DNA of 60,191 nucleotides. It comes from Phycisphaerae bacterium (GTDB lineage Bacteria > Planctomycetota > Phycisphaerae > Tepidisphaerales > Tepidisphaeraceae). The notes beneath the pieces were generated by a model, which was not told the origin of the DNA, did no database searches, and saw nothing but the letters and a program-made list of their open reading frames with translations. Shown one piece after another: positions 5,688 through 44,410 of this stretch; position 1 is the stretch's first letter, and each line of letters begins with the position of its first letter. A program made the translations under genes and the position numbers. The stretch covers positions 1-60,191 of the forward strand of contig JAICIO010000028.1 in the NCBI GenBank assembly GCA_025924315.1, given 5' to 3'.

Positions 5688-5755
5688 GCTCGTTGCTTGT
5701 TGCTGGTTGCTTGTTGTTGCAACACGCAACATGCAACACGCCACTCGCAACAAGC
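5688..5755. repeat. Dyad of GTTGCTTGTTGC / GCAACATGCAAC repeats
   Basis: A left arm of GTTGCTTGTTGC words and a right arm of their complements. Related copies lie at 9621-9684, 43393-43459 and 44350-44410. It occupies the spacer between the first two BMC-H genes. Confidence 0.75.
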
Positions 5756-9620: not shown

Positions 9621-9684
9621 TGCTTGTAGCGTGTTGCGTGTCGCTCGTTGAACAACATGCAACAAGCAACGAGCCACGAGCAAT
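9621..9684. repeat. Dyad of GTTGC/GCAAC words
   Basis: TGCTTGTAGCGTGTTGCG on the left and complementary CAACATGCAACAAGCAACGAGC on the right. It belongs to the family of 5688-5755. It fills the spacer and abuts the next start codon. Confidence 0.65.
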
Positions 9685-9942
9685 ATGCAATTAGGCACCG
9701 TCATCGGCCACGCAACTTCGACGATTAAGCATCCATCGCTCAACGGCTGGCGGATGTCGATCGTGCAGTTGCTCGGGAACGACCGAGCCCCCGAAGGCGA
9801 TGCGATCATCGCGGTCGATAAATGGGGCTCGTCGCCGGGACAGACGGTGATCCTGAACAGCGACGGCAAAGGTGCGCGGGAATTGGTTGGTGATCAAAAG
9901 AGTCCGGTGCGTTGGTTTGTGATTGGAATTGTGGACGAATGA
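9685..9942 (+). CDS. BMC-P (EutN/CcmL) vertex protein 2
   Basis: 85 residues. EutN/CcmL domain: MQLGTVIGHATSTIKHPSL, RMSIVQLLG, DAIIAVDKWGSSPGQTVIL and FVIGIVDE. Pentameric shell vertex protein. Its TGA stop overlaps the ATG of the next gene (ATGA at 9939-9942), so the two are translationally coupled. The mid-segment VDKWGSSPGQ replaces the common VDxVGAGxGE loop that lines the pentamer pore. Confidence 0.9.
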   Translation: MQLGTVIGHATSTIKHPSLNGWRMSIVQLLGNDRAPEGDAIIAVDKWGSSPGQTVILNSDGKGARELVGDQKSPVRWFVIGIVDE

Positions 9943-13145: not shown

Positions 13146-14366
13146 ATGCAGAAGTCACTCGATATCAAACTCGCGAATATTCATCGTGATCCGCACGGTG
13201 CCAAAGACTTCATCCTGGCGGATGCGAAGGACGCCGACATGGCCGCAGGCCTTGCGGCGCCTGGAAAGGACGCGCGCACGGGGAAGATCCGTTCGCTCGC
13301 GGACTATCGCGATCAGATGCGCGAGATCGTGAAGCAGGGGCTTGTCGACATCATGCTGATGTCGTGCTCGACGAGCGAAGTGCTCACGATCAACGAGCGG
13401 ATTTTCGACAACAGCGCGATTACCCCCGCCGCCCGCGCGAACGACACCACCGACATTCATCTGCAAAGTGGCGGCGTGTATCCGAAAGAAGCCTCGCGGC
13501 CGTTTCGGTCTGCGACGATCGACCAGATCCAGAGCGGCAAGGTGAATCCAACCGATTCCGAGCGTCGCCTCGGCGCGGATCTTGGCCTCTACTCGATCAC
13601 GCCGAACAACGATCTCGATGCCGACTACGCCACGCTCGAAGCGTACAAGCAGTTCCGCATCGAAGCGGAGACGAAAGGGTTTCGCCACTTTCTCGAAGTG
13701 TTCGATCCGAATGCGTGCGGTGGCGAATGCCCCGCCGACCTCGGCCGATTCATCAACGACTGGATCGCGCGGACGCTCGCGGGTGTTCCATCGAAATCCC
13801 GGCCGGTGTTCCTCAAGATCGCGTATCACGGTCCAAGGGCGATGGAAGAGCTCGTGCAGTATGACCCGCATCTCGTGGCGGGAATCCTCGGCGGATCGAG
13901 CGGCACCACGCACGACGCGTTCAAGCTGCTCGAAGAATCAAAAAAATATGGCGGGCGCGCCGCCCTCTTCGGCCGAAAGATCAACAATTCCGAACATCAA
14001 CTCACGTTCGTCTCGTACCTCCGAAAGATTGCCGACGGCCAGATCGGAGCTGAAGAGGCCTGCCGCGCCTATCACGGCGATCTGCAGAAGCTGAACCTCA
14101 AGCCGTATCGCGCGCTAAAGGACGATCTGGAACTCACGATCCAGGCGAGCAGCTATGCGGGCACGGGATCGAGCGTTTCGCTTTCGAAACCGACTCAAAA
14201 GGAACCCGCTAAGCCGCAAGCGGGCAGAATCGTTGCATCTACTGTGATCGCAAAGCCTGCGTCAAACGGGCCGCAACCTGACTTCAAGAAGATGACCCAG
14301 GCCGAAAAGGTGGCCTTCGCGCGACAGCGAATCAAATCGGATCTCGCGCGACACAATGGAGACTGA
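13146..14366 (+). CDS. DeoC/DhnA-like TIM-barrel protein of the BMC locus, function unknown
   Basis: 406 residues from the ATG at 13146; an upstream in-frame start lies in the palindrome. The sequence reads like a class I aldolase-type barrel: LAAPGKDARTG, VKQGLVDIMLMS, FRHFLEVFDPN, PVFLKIAYHGPRAMEEL, GILGGSSGTTHDAFKLLEESKK and GGRAALFGRKIN. The lysine of FLKIAYHG could be the Schiff-base residue (inference). A flexible tail with in-frame repeat sequence (PAKPQAG) ends in a charged helix, KKMTQAEKVAFARQRIKSDL, which may act as a targeting tail. Its place beside the aldolase and dehydrogenase suggests a role in the sugar pathway, perhaps as a second aldolase. Confidence 0.7.
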   Translation: MQKSLDIKLANIHRDPHGAKDFILADAKDADMAAGLAAPGKDARTGKIRSLADYRDQMREIVKQGLVDIMLMSCSTSEVLTINERIFDNSAITPAARANDTTDIHLQSGGVYPKEASRPFRSATIDQIQSGKVNPTDSERRLGADLGLYSITPNNDLDADYATLEAYKQFRIEAETKGFRHFLEVFDPNACGGECPADLGRFINDWIARTLAGVPSKSRPVFLKIAYHGPRAMEELVQYDPHLVAGILGGSSGTTHDAFKLLEESKKYGGRAALFGRKINNSEHQLTFVSYLRKIADGQIGAEEACRAYHGDLQKLNLKPYRALKDDLELTIQASSYAGTGSSVSLSKPTQKEPAKPQAGRIVASTVIAKPASNGPQPDFKKMTQAEKVAFARQRIKSDLARHNGD

Positions 14367-14370
14367 ATCG

Positions 14371-14443
14371 AAGGATGAACGATGAATTACGAAGGATGAA
14401 GTGAATCCACTGTTTCATCCCTCATAATTCATCCTTCATCCTT
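14371..14443. repeat. Dyad of AAGGATGAA / TTCATCCTT repeats
   Basis: GAAGGATGAACGATGAATTACG on the left is mirrored by AATTCATCCTTCATCCTT on the right. It lies between the barrel-protein stop and the DeoR start, so it would sit in any deoR leader. Confidence 0.75.
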
Positions 14444-41132: not shown

Positions 41133-42305
41133 ATGATCGCTGTTGACTACGCAACTCCGAAGACTCGCACGGGCAAGAAAGGCCTGGCACTACACTACGT
41201 CGCTCTCGTTACAGCGGCGGCGACGTTTCCGTTGATCTTCATGGGCGGGCTCGTCACGTCGAAACAAGCGGGTATGAGCGTGCCCGATTGGCCGACCAGC
41301 TGGGGCTACAACATGTTCGCCCTGCCGTTCAGCTACTGGGTCGGCGGAGTGTTTTACGAGCATACGCATCGCCTCATGGGCACGGTCGTCGGCTTTTGCT
41401 CGATTATCCTCACAATCGTTGCGTGGAAAACCGAATCCCGGCGATGGGTCCGCTGGCTCGCGACGAGCGTCTTGGCCGCAGTGATCTTCCAAGGGGTTTT
41501 AGGTGGCCTGCGCGTCGTGCTGGTCAAACTCGACCTCGCGATCGTCCACGCCTGCGTCGCCCAGGCCTTCTTCTGCCTCACCGCGTTCATGGCGCTGGTG
41601 ACGTCGCGCTGGTGGCTCAGGCACGTCACCCCAAATGGTGGCACCGACATTCCTGTCGGTGACGGGGCGAGGTACTCCTCGATCCGTTCATCGGCCACCG
41701 TATACGGTGACCGATCACAGACAAGAATGTCCGTGCCACCAAAAGAGGCGCCGAAAGCGGATCGCGCGTTCGTCGTCGCTTGCGGTTTCGCGGTTGCGAT
41801 CATCTATGGCCAGCTCATCATTGGCGCTGTCATGCGTCACTACGAAGCGGGCCTCGCCATCCCGGATTTCCCCACAACTTACGGAAAGATCCTTCCGCCA
41901 ACCACAACGGCGGAAGTGAATCACATCAACCTCACGCACCTCGACGCCCCGAATTTTACCCTCGGCCAGATGTGGCTCGCGTTCGGGCATCGCATCGGCG
42001 CGCTTCTCGTGACGATCGCGCTCGTTACGGTCTTCGTAATGGCGATCCGTCGCAAGATCTACATCCGGTCGATCGTGATCATCGCCGGGTTGCTCGTCGC
42101 GCAGATCACGCTCGGCATTCTCACCGTCCTGATGAAAAAGCCCGCCGACATCGCCTCGCTTCACGTCGCGGTCGGCGCGCTCACCTTGATGACCACCTTC
42201 GTTCTCTTCGTCCGCGCGTATGTTGTGGCACAGCCGCCCTCGGCTGTGCTTTCCCAAGAAACTCAAAACGATTTTGACGAAAAGGCTGTCGGCGTACCTG
42301 CATGA
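41133..42305 (+). CDS. ctaA: Haem A synthase (CtaA/Cox15), with a palindromic element in frame
   Basis: 390 residues from the ATG at 41133; a GTG at 41109 lies in the repeat. Oxidises haem O to haem A for the oxidase. Eight TM helices; the paired haem histidines are in YEHTHRLMG and AIVHACVAQA (first half) and AFGHRIGALL and ASLHVAVGAL (second half); the Cox15 motif is SVPDWPTSWGY. Between the halves, about residues 168-203 (PNGGTDIPVGDGARYSSIRS then MSVPP) come from a palindromic element (41637-41741). The tail QPPSAVLSQ is from a second element. The halves themselves are intact, so the enzyme may still work. Confidence 0.93.
   Translation: MIAVDYATPKTRTGKKGLALHYVALVTAAATFPLIFMGGLVTSKQAGMSVPDWPTSWGYNMFALPFSYWVGGVFYEHTHRLMGTVVGFCSIILTIVAWKTESRRWVRWLATSVLAAVIFQGVLGGLRVVLVKLDLAIVHACVAQAFFCLTAFMALVTSRWWLRHVTPNGGTDIPVGDGARYSSIRSSATVYGDRSQTRMSVPPKEAPKADRAFVVACGFAVAIIYGQLIIGAVMRHYEAGLAIPDFPTTYGKILPPTTTAEVNHINLTHLDAPNFTLGQMWLAFGHRIGALLVTIALVTVFVMAIRRKIYIRSIVIIAGLLVAQITLGILTVLMKKPADIASLHVAVGALTLMTTFVLFVRAYVVAQPPSAVLSQETQNDFDEKAVGVPA
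41637..41741. repeat. Palindromic element (GTGGCACCGACATTC family) inside ctaA
   Basis: The left arm (41637-41658) and right arm (41720-41741) are complementary at 20 of 22 bases. The core has its own inverted repeat (CGGCCACCGTATACGGTGACCG). The reading frame is kept. It sits in the loop joining the two halves of the protein. Confidence 0.88.
42225..42250. repeat. Half element (GTGGCACAGCCG family) at the 3' end of ctaA
   Basis: One hairpin, GTGGCACAGCCGCCCTCGGC then TGTGCT, read in frame as VAQPPSAVL. The matching second hairpin is missing. The last 18 codons of ctaA follow it. Confidence 0.88.
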
Positions 42306-43267
42306 AACCTGCTTCGGATATTTCTGAACTCCCGGATGGTGCTTTGTGTGTGGCACAGCCGCCCTCGGCTGTGCGCGCGCCGAGCACAGCCGAGGGCGGC
42401 TGTGCCACATGGTCCTCCAAGCTCGTCGATTACTACGAGCTCACCAAGCCGCGGATGAACTTCCTCATCCTCATCACGACGATGGTGGGCTTTTACATGG
42501 CCTCGCGCGGCGCGATCGACTGGCTGCGGCTCTTCAACGCCCTGCTCGGCACGCTGTTGTGCGCATCGAGCGCCGGCGTGATCAACCAGGTGATCGAGCG
42601 CAACTACGACCGGCTCATGGACCGTACGCGCAACCGACCGATCCCCGCCGGCCGCGTCCATCCAACCGAGGCGTTCCTCTTCGGCGCCGCTTGCGGCTTA
42701 GCGGGGATTACCGAGCTGCTCGTCACGGTGAACCCCCTCACCGCGGCGCTCGGCGCCTTCACGCTGCTCAGTTACGTCCTGATCTACACGCCGCTGAAGC
42801 GCATCACGTCGCTCAATACCGTCGTCGGCGCGATTCCCGGCGCGATCCCGCCGGTGATGGGTTTTACCGCGGCAAGCGGCGCGCTCTCTCCCGCGGCCCT
42901 CAGCATCTTCGGCATCCTCTTCCTCTGGCAGATGCCGCACTTCCTCGCGATCGCGATCCTCTACAAGCGCGATTACGCCGCGGGTGGGTTCAAGATGCTG
43001 CCGGTCGTCGATCCGCACCTCGAGCAGACACGCAAACAGATTCTGCTGTACGGCCTGGCGCTGATCCCGATGAGCCTGGTGCCCGCCCTGCAGCACACGG
43101 CCGGCGTGGTTTATTTCACCGCCGCCGTCTTGCTCGGGCTGGCATTCTTGAGCTTTGGCGTTTCGTGCGCCGCCACGCGCAGCCGCGAAGACGCTCGCAA
43201 ACTCTTTTTCGCGTCGATCATCTACCTGCCGCTGCTGCTTGCGGCGCTGATGCTCGACAAGATGTGA
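42302..43267 (+). CDS. ctaB: Protohaem IX farnesyltransferase (haem O synthase)
   Basis: 321 residues. Adds farnesyl to haem b to give haem O. UbiA fold: YYELTKPRMNFLILITTMVG, then NYDRLMDRTRNRPIPAGRV with the NxxDRxMDR Mg-diphosphate motif, then the second site YKRDYAAGGFKMLPV, with about nine TM helices. ATG overlaps the ctaA stop (ATGA), so the two are coupled. Residues ~17-36 (VAQPPSAVRAP then TAEGGCAT) are a translated palindromic element, giving a foreign N-terminal extension. The 3' end is duplicated (43365-43386). Confidence 0.95.
   Translation: MKPASDISELPDGALCVAQPPSAVRAPSTAEGGCATWSSKLVDYYELTKPRMNFLILITTMVGFYMASRGAIDWLRLFNALLGTLLCASSAGVINQVIERNYDRLMDRTRNRPIPAGRVHPTEAFLFGAACGLAGITELLVTVNPLTAALGAFTLLSYVLIYTPLKRITSLNTVVGAIPGAIPPVMGFTAASGALSPAALSIFGILFLWQMPHFLAIAILYKRDYAAGGFKMLPVVDPHLEQTRKQILLYGLALIPMSLVPALQHTAGVVYFTAAVLLGLAFLSFGVSCAATRSREDARKLFFASIIYLPLLLAALMLDKM
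42350..42408. repeat. Complete GTGGCACAGCCG twin-hairpin element inside ctaB
   Basis: GTGGCACAGCCGCCCTCGGC then TGTGC, a short GCGCGCCGA core, and GCACAGCCGAGGGCGGCTGT ending GTGCCAC. It begins at codon 17 of ctaB and stays in frame to the start of the conserved protein. Confidence 0.92.
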
Positions 43268-43386
43268 ATGGGCTGTTGGTTCGTTTGTAGGCTCCGCTTC
43301 AGCGGACCGGCTATTTGCTTCTTGGACGAATGAATAACCGGTCCGCTGAAGCGGACCCTACAAGGCTGATGCTCGACAAGATGTGA
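43246..43386. repeat. GGTCCGC twin-hairpin element flanked by a 22-bp direct duplication
   Basis: The element proper is 43287-43361 (GTAG...CTAC, with GGCTA and TAACC inner boxes). The last 22 bases of ctaB including its TGA (43246-43267) are repeated exactly at 43365-43386, just past the element. Such a duplicate on both sides is what an insertion with target-site duplication, or a tandem slip, would leave. Confidence 0.9.
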
Positions 43387-43392
43387 GGCGAT

Positions 43393-43459
43393 TGTTGCAC
43401 GTTGCACGTTGCGTGTTGGAACAACATGCACCAAACAAGACGCAACATGCAACATGCAA
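43393..43459. repeat. Dyad of GTTGCACGTTGC / GCAACATGCAAC words
   Basis: The left arm repeats GTTGCACGTTGCGTGTTGG; the right arm is CGCAACATGCAACATGCAA. Family of 5688-5755. It lies directly before the coxC SD. Confidence 0.72.
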
Positions 43460-43477
43460 GTCCGAAAGGAGCGTTCC

Positions 43478-44347
43478 GTGTCTGACACGGTTCTCAACCA
43501 CGGGTACATCCCCGAAGAACACGCGCCCGATCCGGTCATCGGCCACGGCGATCCGACTCCGCCGGGGAAAGTCGGCATCTGGCTCTTCCTCGCCAGCGAA
43601 ATCATGTTCTTCGTCGCGATCCTCGGGTCCTACGTCATCCTGCGCTCCGGATCGCACGAGCTTTTCGCCAAACACGCGCTGGCGCTCAGCAAGCCGCTTG
43701 CAGGCATCAACACGCTCGTGCTCATCTTCAGCTCTCTCACGATGGCGCTCGCGGTCGATGCGTCGCAAAAAGGTAAGCGCAATAAGACGATCATCTGCCT
43801 GTTTATCACCTTTCTCTGCGCCGCCGGATTCCTGGGCATCAAGGCGATCGAGTACACGAGCAAGTTCAAGCATCACACGATTGTCGCGCGCGAATCCGCC
43901 AACGGTCCGCTCTACGTCTACGACGGCCATCTTCATGAAGAAGATGCTGCGTCAATGACGATCGAAGGCTATCGCATGCCGGTGCCCGAGCACGGCTCGA
44001 TCGACATTCATCTGATCAGCGAACACGACGTGATGAACGGCGGAATTGAGCCGGCCGAGGCGGGACAGAAATCCGAAAAGGCGATGGAGACGTTTACGAT
44101 TCCCAAGAGCGAGATCGCGCAGGACATCATCTATGGCCCGTGGAAGAACATTTTCTACGCGGACTATTTCACGCTGACGGGCATTCACGCGATCCACGTG
44201 ATCGGCGGAATGTTCCCGATCGCGTTCCTCTGCATTTTCGCGATCCGCGGGAAACTGCTTCCGCACCACACCGAATACGTCGGCCTCTACTGGCACTTCG
44301 TCGACCTGGTGTGGATCTTCCTGTTCCCGCTGCTGTACCTGATTTGA
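43478..44347 (+). CDS. coxC: Cytochrome c oxidase subunit III
   Basis: 289 residues from GTG 43478 with SD GAAAGGAG 6-7 bases before it; earlier in-frame starts lie in the repeat. TM helices include VGIWLFLASEIMFFVAILGS, NTLVLIFSSLTMALAVDAS, KTIICLFITFLCAAGFLGI, LTGIHAIHVIGGMFPIAFLC and FVDLVWIFLFPLLYLI. A ~110-residue hydrophilic loop between the third helix and the pair of C-terminal helices (GPLYVYDGHLHEEDAASMTI to GPWKNIFYADYF) is much longer than in typical subunit III. Supports assembly and proton uptake of the oxidase. Confidence 0.93.
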   Translation: MSDTVLNHGYIPEEHAPDPVIGHGDPTPPGKVGIWLFLASEIMFFVAILGSYVILRSGSHELFAKHALALSKPLAGINTLVLIFSSLTMALAVDASQKGKRNKTIICLFITFLCAAGFLGIKAIEYTSKFKHHTIVARESANGPLYVYDGHLHEEDAASMTIEGYRMPVPEHGSIDIHLISEHDVMNGGIEPAEAGQKSEKAMETFTIPKSEIAQDIIYGPWKNIFYADYFTLTGIHAIHVIGGMFPIAFLCIFAIRGKLLPHHTEYVGLYWHFVDLVWIFLFPLLYLI

Positions 44348-44349
44348 TT

Positions 44350-44410
44350 GTGGCTCGTCGCTTGTTGCTTGTTGTTTGACAACACGCAACACGCCACACG
44401 CAACATGCAA
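44350..44410. repeat. Dyad of GTTGCTTGTTG / CAACACGCAAC words
   Basis: TGGCTCGTCGCTTGTTGCTT on the left is mirrored by AACACGCAACACGCCACACG on the right. Same family as 43393-43459. It starts 3 bp after the coxC stop. Confidence 0.72.

Follow-up and report, generated by a model that had tools for sequence, protein, structure and literature searches.

A duplicated ctaB gene end beside a REPIN-like element in a Phycisphaerae genome, most likely a rare secondary scar

Described REP dimers and the element behind ctaB

The closest described systems are the REPINs, REP dimers and BIMEs, in which two inverted GTAG-headed REPs with a variable spacer form a long hairpin, and which occur in high copy numbers at extragenic positions; most lie behind genes, and divergent gene pairs seldom have one between them (Bertels and Rainey 2011, PMC3116915; Di Nocera et al. 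2013, PMC3733652). The GTAG of these REPs often supplies a TAG stop codon (PMC3116915, PMC3733652). Local duplication of REPIN-flanking DNA is known from the tandem REPIN clusters of P. fluorescens SBW25 (PMC3116915, Figure S7), and in bacterial species direct repeats, mostly shorter than 30 bp, border 10-18% of the small variable segments (Touzain et al. 2010, PMC2884548).

The REPIN traits recur in a palindromic element, E, located between ctaB and ctaE in the window, i.e., the whole stretch of 60,191 nucleotides analyzed here, which is contig C28 of a 6.57-Mb assembly of 262 contigs. The element survey covered 2.37 Mb of this genome. The palindrome, taken for REP-like in the sequence-only reading, proved to be a dispersed unit with 96 full copies, or 195 clusters when singles are included. 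The REP unit has the consensus GTAGGGTCCGCTTCAGCGGACC, an imperfect palindrome with a GTAG-type head, and the inverted pair has the family consensus GTAGGGTCCGCTTCAGCGGACCGGTTA...TAACCGGTCCGCTGAAGCGGACCCTAC, with both arms perfect in 32 of the 96 copies. The arms of the ctaB copy (43285-43315 and 43333-43363) measure 31 nt each and are 94% complementary, and its DNA fold has a z of -6.4. It is 79 bp long, while family members range from about 70 to 81 bp with loops that vary from copy to copy.

Copies were placed in 45 codirectional, 44 convergent and 3 divergent intergenes, and one lay within a gene. The stop-codon trait was found as well, with the TAG of the GTAG head serving as the stop codon at 26 of the 127 gene ends that face an element. 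E is a dispersed REP-like unit with the traits of a REPIN (GTAG head, inverted dimer hairpin, high copy number, extragenic position behind genes), and its family is a new sequence family of this already known kind. It differs from the described REPINs and BIMEs by its own sequence, by its host, a genome of the planctomycete class Phycisphaerae, and in that no RAYT gene with complete copies of the E-type REP on both sides was found within the 1.5 kb searched per side. The ctaB copy is not especially young, because it carries two mismatches to the consensus, while 44 of the 96 copies have at most one in both arms.

The repeated gene end at ctaB and its relatives

Table 1. Features of the ctaB-ctaE region, with positions in the window.
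Feature	Position	Strand	Basis
ctaB (heme o synthase)	ORF 42302-43267	+	PF01040 9e-64; TIGR01473 cyoE_ctaB 308.6 bits; gene call
P, first 22-bp repeat copy, formed by the final 22 nt of ctaB including TGA	43246-43267	+	exact-repeat search
Q, 17 bases separating the ctaB stop from the palindrome	43268-43284	+	outside the element family, whose matches begin at 43279-43287
E, REPIN-like palindromic dimer of two inverted GTAG-type REPs with variable loop	43285-43363		GTAG at 43287, CTAC ending at 43361
P', second copy of the ctaB end, non-coding	43365-43386	+	exact-repeat search
E2, second dispersed palindromic repeat of GTTGCAYGTTGC type, unrelated to E, directly behind P'	43387-43460		14 genome matches; fold
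ctaE (cytochrome c oxidase subunit III), next gene	43478-44347	+	PF00510 3.8e-14 on ORF 43409-44347; gene call

As the sequence-only reading had noted, the last 22 bases of ctaB with their stop codon, GCTGATGCTCGACAAGATGTGA, recur exactly past the palindrome (start-to-start spacing 119), and the gene itself is intact upstream of the second copy. With up to three mismatches allowed, the whole 6,567,401-bp assembly holds only these two sites. In a control of 20,000 random pairs of 60-bp flanks with a 75-bp gap, shared words were at most 18 nt long and only two pairs reached 15, so a chance origin of the repeat is excluded. The two copies are 97 bp apart, most of which is the REP dimer. That the duplication flanks the element holds closely for the right side, where a single G separates palindrome and P', but not for the left, where P stands off by the 17 unique bases of Q, ATGGGCTGTTGGTTCGT. 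The first 16 bases of Q occur once in the genome. An origin of Q from a donor element was considered and rejected, as this 16-mer is unique and the loci of its neighbors at one to two mismatches lack an element core.

The nearest named relatives of this ctaB come from Phycisphaerales metagenome assemblies. In a family relative of another genus (L032, 61% protein identity), ctaE follows ctaB after 18 nt with neither element nor duplication; this junction is element-free, but given the different genus it does not represent an exact empty site. Another relative (L039) carries a different palindromic insert behind ctaB. Within the 200 bp past ctaB, a second gene-end copy was found in none of the relatives with a readable ctaB end, so that the same duplication in an element-free relative, which would have marked a plain tandem duplication, was not among them.

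Two further palindromic repeats were observed around these genes. The GTTGCAYGTTGC type is present in the window at 43387-43460, 44346-44410, 9624-9690 and 5692-5737, and several of these copies begin at most about 10 nt from a stop codon. A third type, GGCACAGCCGCCCTCGGCTGTGCC, lies at 42224-42250 in the ctaA-ctaB junction and at 42349-42409 in the 5' region of the long ctaB ORF, and it also has matches in many further genomes of the class. Because 42349-42409 is such a repeat, the true start of ctaB is probably located downstream of 42349, at about 42371 by codon statistics.

Gene-end copies elsewhere in the genome

A search of all element clusters that was blind to genes returned an exact 15-bp direct repeat at locus L241 (contig C21, 14361-14375 and 14447-14461). 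The 3' end of ORF 13340-14374, a putative endonuclease/phosphatase-like gene by its sequence, forms the first copy. The layout resembles that of ctaB: the gene end with its TGA is followed by 23 bp, by an element that breaks off within its loop, and immediately by the 15-bp copy. The duplication of a gene end beside a REP is therefore rare rather than strictly unique. At a third locus (L158, contig C22, 17560-17726), the 17-bp end of a minus-strand gene, stop codon included, is copied 150 bp away (17560/17710), and this pair brackets 133 bp holding other palindromic repeats. The three gene-end repeats of 22, 15 and 17 bp end 0, 1 and 3 nt past the stop codons. A further candidate on contig C5 at 60605 (13/14) was dropped, as its second copy is located within a convergent gene and chance alone should produce several scores of this kind.

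Direct repeats of at least 15 bp spanned 2 of the 195 element clusters, compared to 0.07 expected from shifted positions. The enrichment is nevertheless modest, because with gapped scoring the two clusters that reach a score of 30 stand against 0.6 expected. Gene-end copies of at least 15 nt were found for 3 of 1856 genes, where 0.4 are expected from in-gene anchors and 3.3 from anchors placed 20-62 nt behind genes; since repeats abound in the latter positions, the excess is suggestive only. An element lies within 135 bp of 11% of gene ends, and by arithmetic the probability that two of the three gene-end cases would fall at one by chance is about 0.035. Among the 23 unique separated repeats of at least 15 nt that were listed, four pair coding with non-coding sequence, and three of those four include a stop codon. 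Inverted flank copies around elements did not exceed background. In 500 kb of E. coli K-12 no gene-end copy longer than 12 nt was found, where about one would be expected at the rate of the Phycisphaerae genome, so this absence carries no information.

Origin of the ctaB repeat

The ctaB duplication is most likely a rare secondary scar of local repair or recombination beside the repeat. That this scar stems from a distinct local event that took place after E had arrived is given a probability of roughly 55%. E would have inserted 17 bases past the ctaB stop with no duplication, and a later chromosome break or replication stall would have occurred at the palindrome's right foot. Repair may then have slipped back and re-copied 22 nt of the ctaB end, for which a donor is not needed, or the broken end may have been joined to the end of another ctaB copy without E, on sister or incoming DNA, with homology confined to one side. 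The order gene end, 17 bp, E, gene end would result in both cases. The succession of events is inferred.

The scar is supported by the unequal distances of 17 bp and 1 bp between the palindrome and its left and right repeat copies, unlike a target duplication, by the ctaB copy being the only one of the 96 full copies with a flanking repeat longer than 10 bp, and by the bare 18-bp junction of L032. Palindromes are known sites of breakage and rearrangement (e.g., PMC3315005). At L241, the element stops precisely at the start of the gene-end copy, which fits an order of element first and break second and argues for a break at or in the palindrome as the cause of the copy. Neither junction shows clear microhomology. 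A break with slip-back alone leaves the endings at 0, 1 and 3 nt past the stops unexplained. The one-sided homology route explains these endings better, because alleles with different intergenic DNA would diverge just past the stop, yet it requires an unseen donor.

In homology-facilitated illegitimate recombination (PMC3240628), homology on one side with an illegitimate join on the other would produce the ctaB layout; a donor molecule, however, was not identified at ctaB. The SBW25 clusters share with ctaB the local duplication of REPIN-flanking DNA, but there the whole flank-REPIN-flank unit repeats, whereas at ctaB the gene end alone is repeated and the element is single. The segments of Touzain et al. 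(2010, PMC2884548) are likewise bounded by short direct repeats, which are read there as substrates of deletion, while the ctaB repeat includes a gene end.

A more general process can be put forward tentatively, in which REP palindromes behind genes promote the copying of the adjacent gene end and stop to the far side by recurrent repair or recombination. It draws on the three loci found across 2.37 Mb, of which two involve the E family. The counts suggest a recurrent REP-linked process, but three cases are too few, and we consider it rather improbable. If gene-end copies were recurrent, REP feet would be marked as places in bacterial chromosomes where illegitimate repair or allele exchange preferentially occurs.

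It is unlikely that the ctaB end was first duplicated in tandem, over 22 bp or more, with E inserted between the copies later. Element-free short intergenic duplications do exist in the genome, e.g., at C5 43314/43661 and C6 69014/69181. However, the relatives show no such duplication, the truncated L241 element stops exactly at the gene-end copy, and the 17 bases after P have no counterpart after P'; the idea that Q and the bases following P' are diverged duplicates was rejected, as their alignment score is reached by 40% of shuffles. Equally doubtful is an artifact by which co-occurring haplotypes, ctaB-Q-E and ctaB-E2, were laid end to end in the metagenome assembly. A false haplotype duplication is expected to look like this, with a shared gene end, two differing downstream sequences and a join at a high-copy repeat, and the 262-contig draft has an estimated contamination of 4.6%. 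Against this, the 2.37 Mb contain zero N runs, and repeats of 22, 15 and 17 bp are not of one length and hence do not reflect a fixed k-mer overlap.

A target-site duplication, in which E inserts with a target copy of 15-25 bp that was retained at ctaB as it restores the gene, is very unlikely. It would account for an exact repeat on either side of one dispersed element and for the restored ctaB end, and L241 provides a second gene-end case. When the 60-bp flanks of the 96 full copies were compared, however, the longest shared direct word was 4-10 nt for 95 copies and 22 nt for that at ctaB, and the 95 include the 44 copies within one mismatch of the consensus. Duplications of 15-25 bp, which were to be expected at other recent copies, were thus limited to ctaB itself (1 of 96) and, with 15 bp, to one truncated element. 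Among the 56 copies tested, direct repeats abutting the element ends were at most 2 bp long, and at ctaB the repeat stands off the left element end. In addition, the IS200/IS605 relatives of REP transposases act without larger target duplications (PMC2817692).

On these grounds target duplication was rejected. The E family leaves none and sits just behind stop codons. Of the two events proposed in the sequence-only reading, insertion with duplication falls away, while a copying that took the flank along may still apply. The duplication had also been valued as a clue to mobility, but it tells nothing about how E moves, because nearly all other copies lack one. With this tempting but wrong clue removed, the E family, which makes no long target duplications, agrees with the single-strand transposition expected for REPs.

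Integrative elements classically target gene 3' ends and restore them afterwards. A remnant of such an element, with the ctaB 3' end as attachment site and att-like gene-end repeats left behind, is nonetheless hardly credible, given that just 97 bp, mostly REP dimer, lie between the repeats and that the parallel cases are unrelated gene ends with different repeat sequences.

Ten Y1_Tnp matches were found in the genome in the search for a partner transposase. Of the six Y1_Tnp genes scanned with NF047646 (REP-associated transposases), five scored 40-79 bits, all below the curated cut-off of 80. Within 1.5 kb on each side, element copies accompany only two genes. At L101, a variant copy lies some 0.6 kb from the gene, at a contig end. 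The other, an IS200/IS605-type tnpA (L092, contig C56, 1316-2058; NF033573, 136 bits), is nested in the loop of one element copy. It was rejected as the parent transposon and is interpreted as having inserted into an element, because its ends bear their own hairpins and the flanking halves are the two sides of a single element loop.
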